Below, piece after piece: positions 6,671 through 10,348 of a stretch of 39,389 bases of DNA. The stretch is from the NCBI GenBank assembly GCA_947474995.1, contig CANJNJ010000035.1, positions 1 through 39,389 on the forward strand, written 5' to 3'. Position 1 is the stretch's first letter. The number at the start of each line of letters is the position of its first letter. The position numbers and the translations under genes were made by a program. A model generated the notes under the pieces. It was not told where the DNA came from. It searched no databases and saw only the letters and a list, made by a program, of their open reading frames with translations. This DNA is from Opitutaceae bacterium (GTDB lineage Bacteria > Verrucomicrobiota > Verrucomicrobiia > Opitutales > Opitutaceae).

Positions 6671-6880
6671 TTAAATCATGCCCGCATCCCGAAAGGAAAA
6701 ATATCCGCGCCCGATCGGATCCGACTCCGTCCGTCCGATAATGACGTGGTCGATGAGTTCGATATCGACCGTTCTTGCTGCCTCCCGGAGGAGCCGCGTG
6801 ACGTGAGTGTCCGGCGAACTTGGGGCGGGGTCGCCACTCGGATGATTGTGTACACACACGACGGCGGACGCCCGCAACGA
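6671..6880 (-). pseudogene. RadC-like JAB/MPN domain protein, 5'-truncated
   Basis: The C-terminal half of a RadC family protein is plain: ASAVVCVHNHPSGDPAPSSP carries the JAMM metal-binding motif (HxHPxG...SxxD), followed by LLREAARTVDIELIDHVIIG and the family ending GYFSFRDAGMI with TAA at 6671-6673. RadC proteins are about 220 residues with an N-terminal helix-hairpin-helix; here only about 67 residues of homology remain. The homology ends at about 6877, where the opposite strand begins matching a relaxase helicase. RadC-like JAB proteins are common cargo of plasmids and integrative elements. An in-frame ATG at 6910 would give a 79-residue protein, but its first residues are antisense to the helicase remnant. 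Confidence 0.8.
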
Positions 6881-7982
6881 AAACCGGCTCCTGCTGGTGG
6901 GCGACATCAAGCAGCACGCATCGATCGAAGCCGGTGACGCCGTCCGGTGCCTGCAGGAATTCGCACGCGTGCCGGTCTTTCACCTGACCGAAATCCGGCG
7001 CCAGGTGGACCCGGGCTACCGACAGGCGGTGGCGTGGCTCGCACGCGGCGACGCCTTCGGCGCGTTCAATCAGTTCAACCGGCTCGGTGCCGTTCGCGAA
7101 GTGTCCGAAGGCGCCGGTCTCTGGCAGGAAGCAGCCGCGGATTATGTGCGGACGGTCCAGGCCGGAAAATCCTGTCTGGCGATTTCGCCGGTGCGGGCGG
7201 AGATCCGCGAGTTCACTTCGGCCGTCCGCGCACAGTTGCGACTCGCGGGGGTACTCACGGGCAACGAGCACGCAGTCGCGACGGTCGAATCCCTCAAGTG
7301 GACGCAGGAGGAGCGCCGCCGGATACAAAATTACAGGCCGGGCGATGTGCTCACGTTTCACCACGCGTGGGGCAGCCTCCGCAAGTTCGATGCGGTTGCC
7401 GTCGTGCGCTCAGAAGAACTTCAGTTGGTCGTGCGGGAGGCGGACGGACGCGAACGGCGACTCGACCCCCGGCGGATCAGTGGATTCGAAGTCGGCACCT
7501 CGAACGAAATCTCCCTCGCAGTTGGCGACCGACTGTTGATCCGGGCTAATGTGAAGCCGGCGAATCTGCGCAACGGCGACCTGGTTGAGGTCGCGAGCAT
7601 CGGTCGCGACGGTGAGATTGGGCTCAAGGATGGGCGTGTCCTCCCGGCATGGTTTCGCGAGTTCACCCACGGCTATGCGGCCACCTCGCACGCTTCGCAG
7701 GGAAAGACGGTGGATCGCGGTATCTTGCTGATGGCTGAAGCCGGTATCGCGGCCGGCAACCTGAAGCAGGCCTACGTCTCAAATTCCCGCTTCCGCGAAA
7801 GCCAGATGATCTACACCTCGGACCGCGAAGCCGCGCGCGACGCGTTGATGCGCCTCGCCGACCGGAAGCTCGCCCTCGAAATGGTTGGCCCGGACCAATC
7901 CGGAACCCCGTCGCCCCGAAAGTCGTGGCGTGCGCGTTGGGCTCCGCGCCTCGTCCCCTCAGTCCGCGCCAAAGCCGCATGA
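6879..7982 (+). pseudogene. MobF/TraA-type conjugative relaxase, C-terminal helicase remnant
   Basis: The reading frame matches the C-terminal part of a MobF relaxase-helicase (TraI/TrwC/TraA type, superfamily 1). Homology starts near NRLLLVGDIKQHASIEAGDA (helicase motif III, GDxxQ), continues with FHLTEIRRQ (motif IV region), HGYAATSHASQGKTVDRGIL (motif V) and AYVSNSRFRESQMIYTSD (motif VI). The relaxase domain with its catalytic tyrosine and the Walker A/B half of the helicase are missing; full-length proteins are about 900-1,500 residues. The stop overlaps the next ATG (ATGA at 7979), so the original operon order is preserved. Not functional as a relaxase. Confidence 0.82.
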
Positions 7983-8332
7983 GCATCGAAATCTACCCCG
8001 GAGGAATGCCGCTGGCGCGTCCCGTGCCCCCGAACTGGGGAGAAATCTCGCCCGAGGGCAAGACGGCGACCGTCGTGCGTTTCGTCCTCGTGAACCGTTG
8101 GGTGTCTTTTCCGATTGATCAGTTCGAGCGGTGGGAGCACGCCGTGGGCGAACCGGAGTTGCTCACCATCAAAACGGGCAAGGAGGAAATCGTCATCGAG
8201 GGCCGCGAGTTGTCCGAGATCCGCGCCGCGCTCGATATGGGCCGGCTGTGCGAACTGCGGGTGAACTTTCCGCGCCCCACAGGCGCGCGGCCCGGCCCGC
8301 AGGTGCGCCGAATCACGATTGAAACGGCATGA
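7979..8332 (+). CDS. Conserved-looking hypothetical protein of the conjugative element
   Basis: I do not recognise this 117-residue protein. It is soluble, begins MSIEIYPGGMPLARPVPPNW, has a probable beta-sheet centre (TVVRFVLVNRWVSFPIDQFE, PELLTIKTGKEEIVIEGREL) and no cysteine except one near residue 93. The ATG overlaps the relaxase-remnant stop (ATGA), which supports translational coupling and this start over the in-frame ATG at 7925. Codon use matches the surrounding genes. Its neighbours suggest a conjugative-element accessory gene. Confidence 0.6.
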   Translation: MSIEIYPGGMPLARPVPPNWGEISPEGKTATVVRFVLVNRWVSFPIDQFERWEHAVGEPELLTIKTGKEEIVIEGRELSEIRAALDMGRLCELRVNFPRPTGARPGPQVRRITIETA

Positions 8333-8335
8333 GGC

Positions 8336-8776
8336 ATGGCGCTAAAATCCCGCAACGACAACCAGCTCGATCTCTTCGCGCACTTTCAAAATGAGCGGAC
8401 TCCTGGCGTACAGACTAATGGCGGAACGGCACTGGCGGGAACACCGTCCGAAGATGGTGCTCGAACTGGAAGCGGAGAACCGGCTGCTGCCGGCTCTGCT
8501 GGAGGCCCAGGAGCGGACCGCGACAGAAATGGATCCGTTGATCCGGGAGTTCCGCCAGCAGGGCCTGACGCCACAGCTGGCCCACGATCAGGCGTGGGAG
8601 CTGGTGCGGGAGAAATAAATCCTGCATTCACCGGAGACACCGGAGTAGAGCCTCCACGCAACCCCAACTACTACCAGATCACCAGCGCCGACCGGCTCGG
8701 CGAAGGTTCGCTCCGGCAGAAGCAGCACTATCCCATCGCGCGCCTGGCGGAAGGAGTCGGGGACAAGAAACAATGA
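8336..8776 (+). pseudogene. Conjugative-element DNA helicase/methylase, N-terminal remnant
   Basis: A 146-residue frame starting MALKSRNDNQLDLFAHFQ, then about 85 residues of Gly/Pro/Ala/Thr/Asp-rich linker, then NPNYYQITSADRLGEGSLRQ. The last stretch resembles the N-terminus of the very large (1,500+ residue) SNF2/methylase-type helicases of plasmids and integrative elements (pattern YxITxxDRxGxGSLxQK). After RQK homology ceases and the frame ends within 17 residues; the ending may be the original C-terminus joined by an in-frame deletion. The linker section fully overlaps another plausible gene (8391-8618) in a different frame. Confidence 0.6.
8391..8618 (+). CDS. Small conserved-type protein nested in another frame
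   Basis: A 75-residue protein starting MSGLLAYRLMAERHWREHRP and ending GLTPQLAHDQAWELVREK. It is charged, helical and has normal amino-acid balance, unlike the low-complexity product of the overlapping frame. The layout (Y/AERHWREHRPKM near the start, LLEAQERT in the middle, QGLTPQxAxxxAWELVREK at the end) resembles small conserved proteins I associate with conjugative elements of Gram-negative bacteria; no function is known. It lies wholly within 8336-8776 in a +1-shifted frame. Either both are genes, or the flanking homology of the larger frame is what remains around this one. Confidence 0.6.
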   Translation: MSGLLAYRLMAERHWREHRPKMVLELEAENRLLPALLEAQERTATEMDPLIREFRQQGLTPQLAHDQAWELVREK

Positions 8777-9102
8777 AGACGTTCGTAGCCATCTACGTGA
8801 AGGAGGGCCTCAGCCATAAAGTGTGGTTCGAGGCTGACTCCCTTGATGTTGCGCGTGGTCTTTCGGCCGGGTGGGGCGTTGGGCTTCTCGGCGAATCGGA
8901 GCAGCCAGATTACAAGCCTGAACCGCTACCGGAGGCCTATAACGAAAAATCCGCCCGGCAGATGTTGGGCGGAATTTCGTTGGCGACACTGTATCGGTGG
9001 GTCGCGACCGGAAAGCTCTACCGGGTGCCCGACACCCGGCGGCTGCTCGTCACACGACTTTCGATTGAGCGGCAGACTCGATCGGCGGGCCGCCGGGATT
9101 GA
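8773..9102 (+). CDS. Excisionase-like HTH protein
   Basis: The 109-residue product has a C-terminal MerR/excisionase-type winged HTH (HTH_17 style) at about residues 56-100: NEKSARQMLGGISLATLYRW, VATGKLYRVPDTRRLLV, in which the LYRWVATGKLYRV helix is typical. The N-terminal half (MKTFVAIYVKEGLSHKVWFE) looks like a separate small alpha/beta unit. The ATG overlaps the preceding stop (ATGA at 8773). The gene converges on the integrase and overlaps its 3' end by 53 bases. Position beside int suggests a recombination directionality factor (Xis) or regulator; that role is inferred. Confidence 0.7.
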   Translation: MKTFVAIYVKEGLSHKVWFEADSLDVARGLSAGWGVGLLGESEQPDYKPEPLPEAYNEKSARQMLGGISLATLYRWVATGKLYRVPDTRRLLVTRLSIERQTRSAGRRD

Positions 9103-10348
9103 AGGAGACCACGTTCGTCGTGTTGTCGGCAAAGTCGACCAGCGCGGCCTGTGCGAACGAATGATCTTGGCGCAAGTGACCGTAGGTCTTCAGCGCGAGA
9201 CGCCCGCCGTCACCATGGCCAAGCCAGCGCGACACCGTCGGGATGTCCACGCCCTTCTCAATACAGATGGTCGCGAAGTAGTGTCGCATGTGGTGCTGCG
9301 TGAGCCGCTTCACCTTGAGCTGCGCACAAGCCCGCCACAGTGCCTTCAAACACGACTGCGCCTTCAGCAATTTCTCTTCCGGATTACGGCCCGCGACAAG
9401 CGGGTCGATCAGCCGCCGCAGGGGCGGGATGACCGGGATAGTACGCTCCGACGACACCGATTTGTACCCGGGAATGTAAAGCGTACCGCACTTCCCGCCG
9501 ATACCCGGCTTGTAGAACTTCACCTTGACGAGGTTCGCTTCCTCGTGACGCGCGCCCGAAAACGCGAGGAACTCCGCGAAATCGGCGTTCGCATTCGCGA
9601 AGTCCTGCTGCTTCTTCAGCCAGCCTGGAGCGTCCAGAGTCGCTTTGATTGTGCGCAACTGGACGAAGATGCGGTCCATGACGGCGCGGTCCGGCAGTTC
9701 CGGAATTTTCGTCTGGGTGGGAAGGTTCAGTTTTTGCCGAAGCACGCCGCCGGCCGAGAACGGATTTTCAATCATCACCCGCTTCTCAATCGCGATGTCG
9801 ACGAGTCGGCGCAGGCAGAAAAGCGTGTCGTTCACGACCGAGTTGCAGTAGCCCTTGGTGGCCCTATTAGCGATGCTGGGTTTCCCGTGCATGACCTTCG
9901 CGCTTTTCGCTAGCTGCTCACGCAGTTCGAAGATGACGTCGAGGCTCACGGCCTTGACGTTGAAACTTTCGAAAGTCCCGCGCTGCCAGTTTTCACGAAG
10001 GCGCTTGAGGTGCCCCCGGTAGCCAACCCTCGAAGAGTCCGCGAGGTCGGAGGTTTCCATACGCGCTTCGAATTCCTTCGCCAATGCGCCCAACGTCCGG
10101 AATTCGGAGGTAAGTTTGCCACCCTTCGCTCGAGTTTCCTCGTTGTCGCTCTGTTCCTTCCGGTGCCGCAGTTTTGCAACTGTCAGGACTTCGGTTTCGA
10201 GGCTCTTCCAAGTCCTCGTGCCGTTCAGGGAAACGCGAGTCACGTAGACGCCGCGCGAATGGCGGAAGTAGAGGTTCTCAACTCCGTGAACCTTCTCGAA
10301 GTCGCCTTTCTTATCAGCCTTTTCCGATAGAGATGCGTTTTTGCTCAT
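9050..10348 (-). CDS. Tyrosine recombinase (phage/element integrase)
   Basis: A full-length 432-residue tyrosine recombinase. The N-terminal part includes an arm-binding-like region (NLYFRHSRGVYVTRVSLNG) and a SAM-like core-binding domain around residues 85-190 (LGALAKEFEARME onward). The catalytic domain shows SGARHEEA (first Arg, about residue 262), HHMRHYFATICIEKGVDIPT (H-x-x-R, about 350), WLGHGDG, and KTYGHLRQ with the nucleophilic Tyr near 388. All catalytic residues are present, so it should be active. It lies at the right edge of the island with its promoter facing the junction, the usual arrangement for integrases; paired 9-bp direct repeats lie just upstream. Confidence 0.93.
   Translation of the reverse strand: MSKNASLSEKADKKGDFEKVHGVENLYFRHSRGVYVTRVSLNGTRTWKSLETEVLTVAKLRHRKEQSDNEETRAKGGKLTSEFRTLGALAKEFEARMETSDLADSSRVGYRGHLKRLRENWQRGTFESFNVKAVSLDVIFELREQLAKSAKVMHGKPSIANRATKGYCNSVVNDTLFCLRRLVDIAIEKRVMIENPFSAGGVLRQKLNLPTQTKIPELPDRAVMDRIFVQLRTIKATLDAPGWLKKQQDFANANADFAEFLAFSGARHEEANLVKVKFYKPGIGGKCGTLYIPGYKSVSSERTIPVIPPLRRLIDPLVAGRNPEEKLLKAQSCLKALWRACAQLKVKRLTQHHMRHYFATICIEKGVDIPTVSRWLGHGDGGRLALKTYGHLRQDHSFAQAALVDFADNTTNVVSFNPGGPPIESAAQSKVV

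Follow-up and report, generated by a model that had tools for sequence, protein, structure and literature searches.

DarB-like polyvalent methylase-helicases were described by Iyer et al. (2017, PMC5512222); the main text of that article, as far as it was accessible, mentions neither TnpV, nor an overlap, nor a linker, and uses the words "nested" and "frame" for other matters. TnpV (PF14198), a protein of Tn4451-type elements, is described as the product of an ordinary separate gene, and a role as Xis has been postulated for the TnpV of Tn4451 (PMC3158075, accessible in part). Genes lying completely inside another one in an alternative frame are known from the internal overlaps of phiX174 (PMC8227390) and from Rz1, embedded in Rz (PMC9144972), and overprinting is presented as the usual route to viral overlaps (PMC8227390; both articles accessible in part).

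Here, we analysed a stretch of 39,389 nucleotides (hereafter the window) from an Opitutaceae bacterium (assembly GCA_947474995.1, contig CANJNJ010000035.1), in which a small frame is nested in a larger one. The full-length large protein of a relative, locus L033, shares with the DarB-like proteins a phrog_10089 match and SNF2/helicase domains; P1 darB, unlike the family of the window, has no nested gene. The nested protein resembles TnpV by distant homology and by its mobile-element context, and some TnpV genes are themselves nested, in frame +1, in methylase-helicase frames; it differs from TnpV, described as a separate gene, and remains under the Pfam cut-off. As in phiX174 and Rz/Rz1, the overlap is internal, complete and in an alternative frame. 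Unlike in these cases, the outer reading is a linker, predicted to be disordered, homologues of the inner gene also stand alone, and the linkers of related outer genes house inner genes that are dissimilar. To our knowledge, there are few documented cases, small viruses apart, of a complete same-strand overlap that is conserved across such distances. No nested gene in a DarB-like gene is described in the literature searched, which was accessible in part and excluded most subscription papers and the Bcep22 genome paper. We propose that the DNA encodes two overlapping proteins, one of them nested within a linker of the other, a DarB-like methylase-helicase; expression data being absent, we consider this very probable rather than established.

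Results

Gene content of the window

Both frames were confirmed, and, as the initial annotation had it, one lies within the other: the large one at 8336-8776 (+ strand, 146 aa), the small one at 8391-8618 (+ strand, 75 aa). The offset of 55 nt places the nested frame in +1 relative to the large one, the wobble position of the large frame falling on nested codon position 2. The third sense frame of the overlap is interrupted by stops.

Comparison with relatives showed that the large frame is the N-terminal part of a DarB-like methylase-helicase gene, cut short by truncation. Near the N-terminus of its product lies QLDLF (8363..8377, +), a motif of the beta-clamp-binding type, for which the consensus is QL(S/D)LF (PMC11139829, accessible in part). 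The nested gene (8391..8618, +) encodes a TnpV-like helical protein, and the same DNA (8390..8617, +) is read in the large frame as a low-complexity Gly/Pro/Ala linker, predicted to be disordered in homologue L033. The start of the methylase region follows (YYQITSADRLGEGSLRQK, 8669..8722, +), and is the last part homologous to relatives, the tblastn alignment with L033 ending at residue 129. The tail (8723..8776, +) is absent from the relatives compared, and represents a truncation or deletion junction. About 129 residues are common with relatives and the final 17 are not. The recognisable ends initially ascribed to the large frame are the clamp-binding-type motif and the edge of the DarB-like methylase region. 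Cut where the methylase region begins, the window copy does not qualify as a complete methylase plus helicase. Its nested frame ends just upstream of the Y(I/L)LLPPE tail found in most relatives.

Upstream lies the C-terminal remnant of a relaxase-helicase (6846..7982, +; AAA_30 52.8 bits; TraI_2B 18.7 bits, below cut-off), which has 61% identity to that of L033 across 317 residues, the gene order being the same. The interval between relaxase and methylase holds a conserved ORF of unknown function (7925..8332, +), 39% identical to L033 over 87 residues and without a match in Pfam or PHROG. Downstream are a small HTH_17-like protein (8773..9102, +; E 0.0023, a weak match under the Pfam cut-off) and a tyrosine recombinase, or integrase (9050..10348, −; Phage_integrase E 5.2e-8). 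The interval 6846-10348 is a decayed mobile element, made up of a truncated relaxase, a truncated methylase, the HTH protein and a tyrosine recombinase that looks intact. No methylase match was found at E 1e-20 in the window's own genome. With relaxase and methylase truncated, the nested tail lost and no methylase match in the genome, we concluded that the window carries a relic of the element. Its truncated copy may be functionless, and the biology has to be sought in intact relatives.

The large protein and its linker

In intact relatives, the large gene mostly counts 1700-2000 codons. The full-length product of L033 (1717 residues) matched phrog_10089, "DarB-like antirestriction", with 1726 bits over residues 64-1685. 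ResIII and Helicase_C were above the Pfam cut-off and SNF2-rel_dom at the cut-off; no Pfam methylase model was found in L033 at E 0.001. A homologue from Virgibacillus (L124) matched Eco57I and Methyltransf_11.

In 79 of the 80 named relatives retained (see below), a QLxLF-type motif lay within 40 residues upstream of the nested start; downstream, 103,320 residues of large protein contained it only once. Three distant methylases in which no nested gene is visible (L212-L214) begin nearly at a similar motif, followed by a short linker. The position of the motif in a segment that is disordered in the L033 model is that expected of a clamp-binding protein. Binding itself is inferred, as there are no binding data, and the sequences suggest that the DarB-like methylase-helicases of these elements are tethered to the host replication clamp by their near-perfect N-terminal QLxLF.

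AlphaFold predicted four helices and no strand for the nested protein of L033 (mean pLDDT 87, pTM 0.68). In the L033 large protein, residues 1-107, which correspond to the overlap and the stretch directly 5' of it, had pLDDT below 50, and folding was predicted from about residue 110, just past the end of the nested gene. Foldseek found no match to the nested protein in PDB at E <1, and VIA-align, PADLOC and NCBIfam yielded no informative relative. A PDB sequence search was uninformative, its best match being a designed helical repeat (E 0.00094). The DUF6074 profile matched 13 of 22 nested-family members (best E 3.7e-5); a literature search on DUF6074 returned nothing.

Relatives of the nested gene

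Among 150 genomes of the same family, a match to the nested protein at E ≤0.01 was obtained in 21, and in 19 once the spurious matches in G030 and G071 were removed. Of the 27 places examined at this level, 25 were real, and both frames were intact over the overlap in 21 of them, window included. In the other four (L017-L020), one or both frames were damaged: the nested start is gone and the large frame has 202 codons in L017 and L019, a stop lies inside the nested frame of L018, and L020 has an indel. The matches L002, L021 and L022 were rejected as spurious.

A scan of named genomes gave 114 relatives, of which 80 were kept, mostly labelled Verrucomicrobiota or just "bacterium". The labels Planctomycetota, Anaerolinea, Dechloromonas and Methanoregulaceae each rest on a single MAG contig, possibly mis-binned. 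In 79 of the 80, all but L084, the large frame was open over the whole length of the nested match; the nested start was ATG or GTG in 77, and one nested frame had an internal stop. Large frames reached at least 1000 codons in 61 loci, ran off the contig in 9, and were shorter and closed in 10. These sequences share ancestry, so that locus counts are not independent. The large frame is maintained open through the nested gene in nearly all relatives examined. Plasmid searches with the nested proteins of the window and of phage POI1126 gave no match. In the annotated records that were opened, gene tables list one of the two frames, and none lists both.

The reverse search, starting from the methylase, found the nested gene at 22 of 24 family-level loci, counting the damaged copies of G053 and G146; the two loci without it are L195, a partial match, and L196, a relative with 37% identity. 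At the phylum level, 17 methylase loci were obtained, 5 of them shared with the family-level set. Among the other 12, a TnpV-like gene was clear in 3, scored 30.7 bits in one and was weak in one; seven had none. P1 darB, scanned as a control, contained no nested homologue. Identities between nested proteins correlated with those between methylases (Mantel r 0.47, 0 of 999 permutations), a correlation that co-inheritance would predict. The initial annotation had held that homologues carrying the small gene without the flanking ends of the larger frame would refute the pair; this did not apply to the named relatives, with the large frame open in 79 of 80, or to the family-level loci, and stand-alone copies were found only among distant canonical TnpV genes.

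Selection inside the overlap

The pair had been suspected of overprinting, one protein being constrained and the other free, which a comparison of synonymous sites could decide. For 75 of the 80 loci, codon phase and pN/pS were analysed in 37 independent pairs (74 sequences paired), with nested nucleotide identities of 0.61-0.98. L074, L093, L084 and L102, whose large frame is decayed or very short, were dropped by our choice, and L089 because of an internal stop.

Differences per codon amounted to 0.119, 0.081 and 0.263 at nested positions 1, 2 and 3, position 3 being more variable than position 2 in every one of the 37 pairs, and to 0.181, 0.129 and 0.414 at large-frame positions 1, 2 and 3 downstream of the overlap. 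The wobble position of the large frame is therefore the most variable one downstream and the least variable one inside. At fourfold sites of the large frame, divergence was 0.031 in the overlap vs 0.407 downstream, a 13 fold suppression. The bootstrap median of pN/pS was 0.246 (0.20-0.29) for the nested gene; for the large gene, it was 0.297 downstream and 2.16 (about 2.1) within the overlap. Yet over the overlap the 74 sequences contained no stop in the large frame, vs 312 in the third frame. Between the window and its nearest relative, L033, 43 nt differences were counted over 75 codons, 8, 5 and 30 of them at nested positions 1, 2 and 3 (nested pS 0.60, pN 0.064). Nested fourfold sites diverged at 0.71 (0.62-0.80) of the downstream rate, which means that the large frame constrains the DNA too.

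When codons were resampled with the large protein kept fixed, the nested frame was open with a median probability of 0.76 (73 of 80 loci), so that an open nested frame by itself is weak evidence. With the nested protein fixed, the large frame was open with a median probability of 0.128 per locus. The first of these values is what could be said for the large gene alone being real and the nested frame a by-product of the Gly/Pro/Ala linker. Such a by-product fits neither the suppression at large-frame fourfold sites, nor the low nested pN/pS, nor the agreement of all pairs, nor the conservation of nested proteins over unalignable linkers, as in L209/L210 (see below). A chance open frame was rejected on the substitution pattern, and we regard this explanation as next to impossible.

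The small frame is thus under purifying selection (pN/pS about 0.25), while the large one, nearly free in its amino acids, remains stop-free. Inner purifying selection and an open outer frame are what an overprinted pair calls for, and the suspicion was borne out here at the level of sequence evolution, with further support from the natural TnpV control presented below. Within the linker of the DarB-like methylase-helicase, the nested frame has been evolving under the constraints of a protein-coding gene.

Phage loci and the start of the nested gene

By tblastn, the nested protein was found under phage genes annotated as DarB-like, DNA methylase, PLxRFG, transglycosylase, Snf2 helicase or hypothetical. 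Frame analysis established +1 nesting in Itty13, POI1126, Pavtok and LASTA, further in Atu_ph08, VvAW1, Mwe-JY07, PEp14 and SopranoGao, and in 20 of 20 IMG/VR loci, one of which (L155) has an interrupted large frame. The large frame extends kilobases 5' of the nested gene in phages, and the overlap must therefore be read through. Bcep22-like and USP_25-like phages have divergent nested versions, with weak HMM support; within the Bcep22-like group, the codon phase is less clear-cut (98, 120 and 213 at nested positions 1, 2 and 3, all pairs of 7). In JC1, a phage of the Bcep22-like kind, the DarB-like protein has been detected among the virion proteins (PMC9144972, accessible in part). PBC5 apart, none of the phage records with a nested gene whose feature table was opened lists this gene as a separate CDS. 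In the record of Pseudomonas phage Itty13 (L029), antisense ORFs are annotated across the entire DarB-like frame, which is itself unannotated.

A Shine-Dalgarno of at least 4 nt was found at 25 of 27 distinct TnpV-like phage or viral starts, vs 546 of 2698 control ATGs (20%); many of these phages are mutually related. It was also found at 7 of 7 divergent starts and 4 of 4 starts of the MYQVP family described below, and not at the single Bacteroides phage candidate (L164, 0 of 1). The duplicates L145, L146 and L170, L159 (no start found), and L166, L168 and L171 were left out; L176 is outside these counts, with a separate score of 3. Verrucomicrobiota-type loci showed no clear enrichment (0.29 of 65 nested starts vs 0.20 of 1717 controls), and their large starts were likewise unenriched (0.20 of 64).

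In Sinorhizobium phage PBC5 (L136/L178), the polyvalent gene is split, its upstream half being in frame with the nested protein (gp22 fusion). The frame junction is either a sequencing indel or a real fusion. The gp22 fusion can be invoked in favour of ribosomal frameshifting out of the large frame, giving a chimeric product. PBC5 (2 of 40 records) is, however, the sole phage aligning in one piece across the boundary; in L004, L005, L008, L023, L031 and L138, an in-frame stop lies only 1-2 codons ahead of the nested start, leaving hardly any sequence in which a frameshift could lead into it; and nested starts and phage Shine-Dalgarnos are conserved. Frameshifting was rejected as the main route on the basis of these stops, starts and Shine-Dalgarnos, and seems very unlikely to us. 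We prefer internal initiation: the nested protein would be made from its own start on the same mRNA, a strong inference, still without expression data, which rests on the conserved start, the Shine-Dalgarno in phages and the upstream in-frame stops in several loci.

The nested family also gave a strong match to phrog_938, "endolysin", at profile positions 2092-2156 of 2185 (39 of 39 members). The match is probably due to the fused gp22 of PBC5 and does not speak for a role in lysis. The best BFVD match, Q8W6J4_2 (E 5.2e-3, prob 1.00), is inferred to be this same fusion.

TnpV as a natural control

PF14198 matched 20 of 22 nested-family members at E ≤1 (best 1.5e-5), and one hhalign comparison of the nested family with TnpV gave 90.3%, E 1.5e-6. 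The window protein, at 15.1 bits, does not reach the PF14198 gathering score of 27; a Verrucomicrobiota nested homologue (L116, 28.2 bits) and the nested canonical TnpV of L113 (126.5 bits) do, meaning that the wider nested family crosses the Pfam cut-off.

Canonical TnpV genes were found in +1 within large methylase-helicase-type frames (L113, L123, L124, L126, L127, L128, L130 and L133, the large frames of L113 and L128 running off their contigs), and also standing alone (L114, L125, L129, L131 and L132). Out of 36 plasmid and 45 phage records, 10 were picked by eye and opened; TnpV was nested in 6 and alone in 4. Two of the stand-alone genes opened follow recombinase genes. For the plasmids of Cohnella (L127) and Monoglobus (L133), the PLSDB tables list TnpV and omit the surrounding frame of about 1700 codons; for the former, an antisense hypothetical is listed 5' of TnpV. 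These tables are incomplete and leave out pseudogenes.

At 18 IMG/VR loci with canonical TnpV, the partner frame had no stop in 5 (502-1406 codons in the fetched stretch) and 2-7 stops in 13. Within this set, L215 and L123 are one and the same contig, L219 and L231 seem to be near-copies, and L228 has a stop inside TnpV. The 13 closed partner frames mean that the TnpV protein alone does not hold the partner frame open.

This control bears on the possibility that the nested gene alone is real, the large gene beginning after it and the N-terminal extension remaining untranslated. The near absence of amino-acid constraint on the large frame inside the overlap would agree with it, as would the two plasmid tables, with the reservations made, in which TnpV appears without the large frame. 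It leaves unexplained, however, a large frame open in nearly all named relatives where most canonical TnpV genes have several stops, the clamp-type motif 5' of the nested gene, the slowed nested fourfold sites, and the read-through required in phages. We give it hardly any credit.

The kinship with TnpV could also mean that the nested protein acts alone in excision or recombination, in the manner of Xis, its location being mere packing; the recombinase genes ahead of two stand-alone TnpV genes would suit such a role. Lambda Xis has a winged-helix fold. The nested model, with four helices and no strand, appears unlike it and had no Foldseek match in PDB at E <1, and the nested gene directly adjoins the methylase region on its 5' side. 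We find a role of this kind unlikely, without being able to dismiss it.

A tree of nested and stand-alone TnpV needs three state changes, whose direction it does not fix. For a de novo birth of the nested gene by overprinting of a pre-existing linker there is the precedent of viral overlaps (PMC8227390, accessible in part); against it stand the stand-alone homologues and the confident fold of the nested protein, the linker being the low-complexity, fast partner. We take it to be quite unlikely. Since stand-alone homologues exist, we rather infer, less firmly than internal initiation, that the nested gene started as a small neighbour and was engulfed as the enzyme became fused to upstream sequence.

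Other genes in similar linkers

A second nested family in +1, named here MYQVP, was found in a linker of DarB-like genes in phages Skulduggery, Parlo, ZX1, Ruegeria 45A6 and Vibrio 1.232.O (L162, L163, L175, L176 and L177), that is in 5 of 5 phages opened, from 6 phages in 8 matching records. Its members are 28-65% identical to each other, without detectable similarity to the TnpV-like family. By our reading, the MYQVP gene precedes a different region, seemingly where the helicase part begins. The MYQVP protein had no relative in an IMG/VR scan, whereas the phage collection yielded some. L209 and L210, from Verrucomicrobiota, carry a third +1 nested family (42% identity, E 2e-27) in linkers that cannot be aligned. 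A TnpV-like nested protein was seen in L211 (about 29-31 bits) and a weak one in L207; further candidates are L208, with a strong Shine-Dalgarno, and L164, without one. Whether these four, known from one sequence each, are genes is uncertain. An 87-codon +1 ORF in L206 was unconvincing on inspection by eye.

Discussion

The large-frame reading of the overlap would be a disordered tether of about 100 residues, joining the beta-clamp-binding-type motif, or upstream domains in phages, to the methylase. As a disordered tether is inferred to tolerate nearly any stop-free sequence, a folded gene could persist in the other frame.

What the nested protein does is a matter of hypothesis. It could be an accessory partner or regulator of the surrounding enzyme, both being produced together while DNA enters the cell or is transferred. 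This is possible but on balance doubtful, and is weakened by the occurrence of TnpV without the enzyme. A broader reading is that nesting recurs at a conserved site, the linker of polyvalent DNA-protection enzymes, which houses at least three dissimilar +1 families, ahead of the methylase region or, for MYQVP, of the presumed start of the helicase part. What looks like junk in the linker would then be a swallowed accessory gene read out of frame, the nested proteins unannotated co-expressed partners, and TnpV an escapee living alone. We hold this to be a serious possibility, which we do not quite go so far as to call probable.

The initial annotation did not foresee which gene the large frame belongs to, that this gene carries a clamp-type motif, that the window copy is a relic, or that the arrangement recurs in phages and in elements of Bacillota type. 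The clean asymmetry of selection, the nested and stand-alone TnpV genes as control and the dissimilar inner genes make the origin and persistence of nested genes directly testable. The nested arrangement has been overlooked in the annotation of related phages and mobile elements. For the biology of these elements, the results suggest, short of binding data, an antirestriction machine tethered to the replication clamp, and they add a missing protein to this widespread and poorly understood machine of phages and mobile elements.
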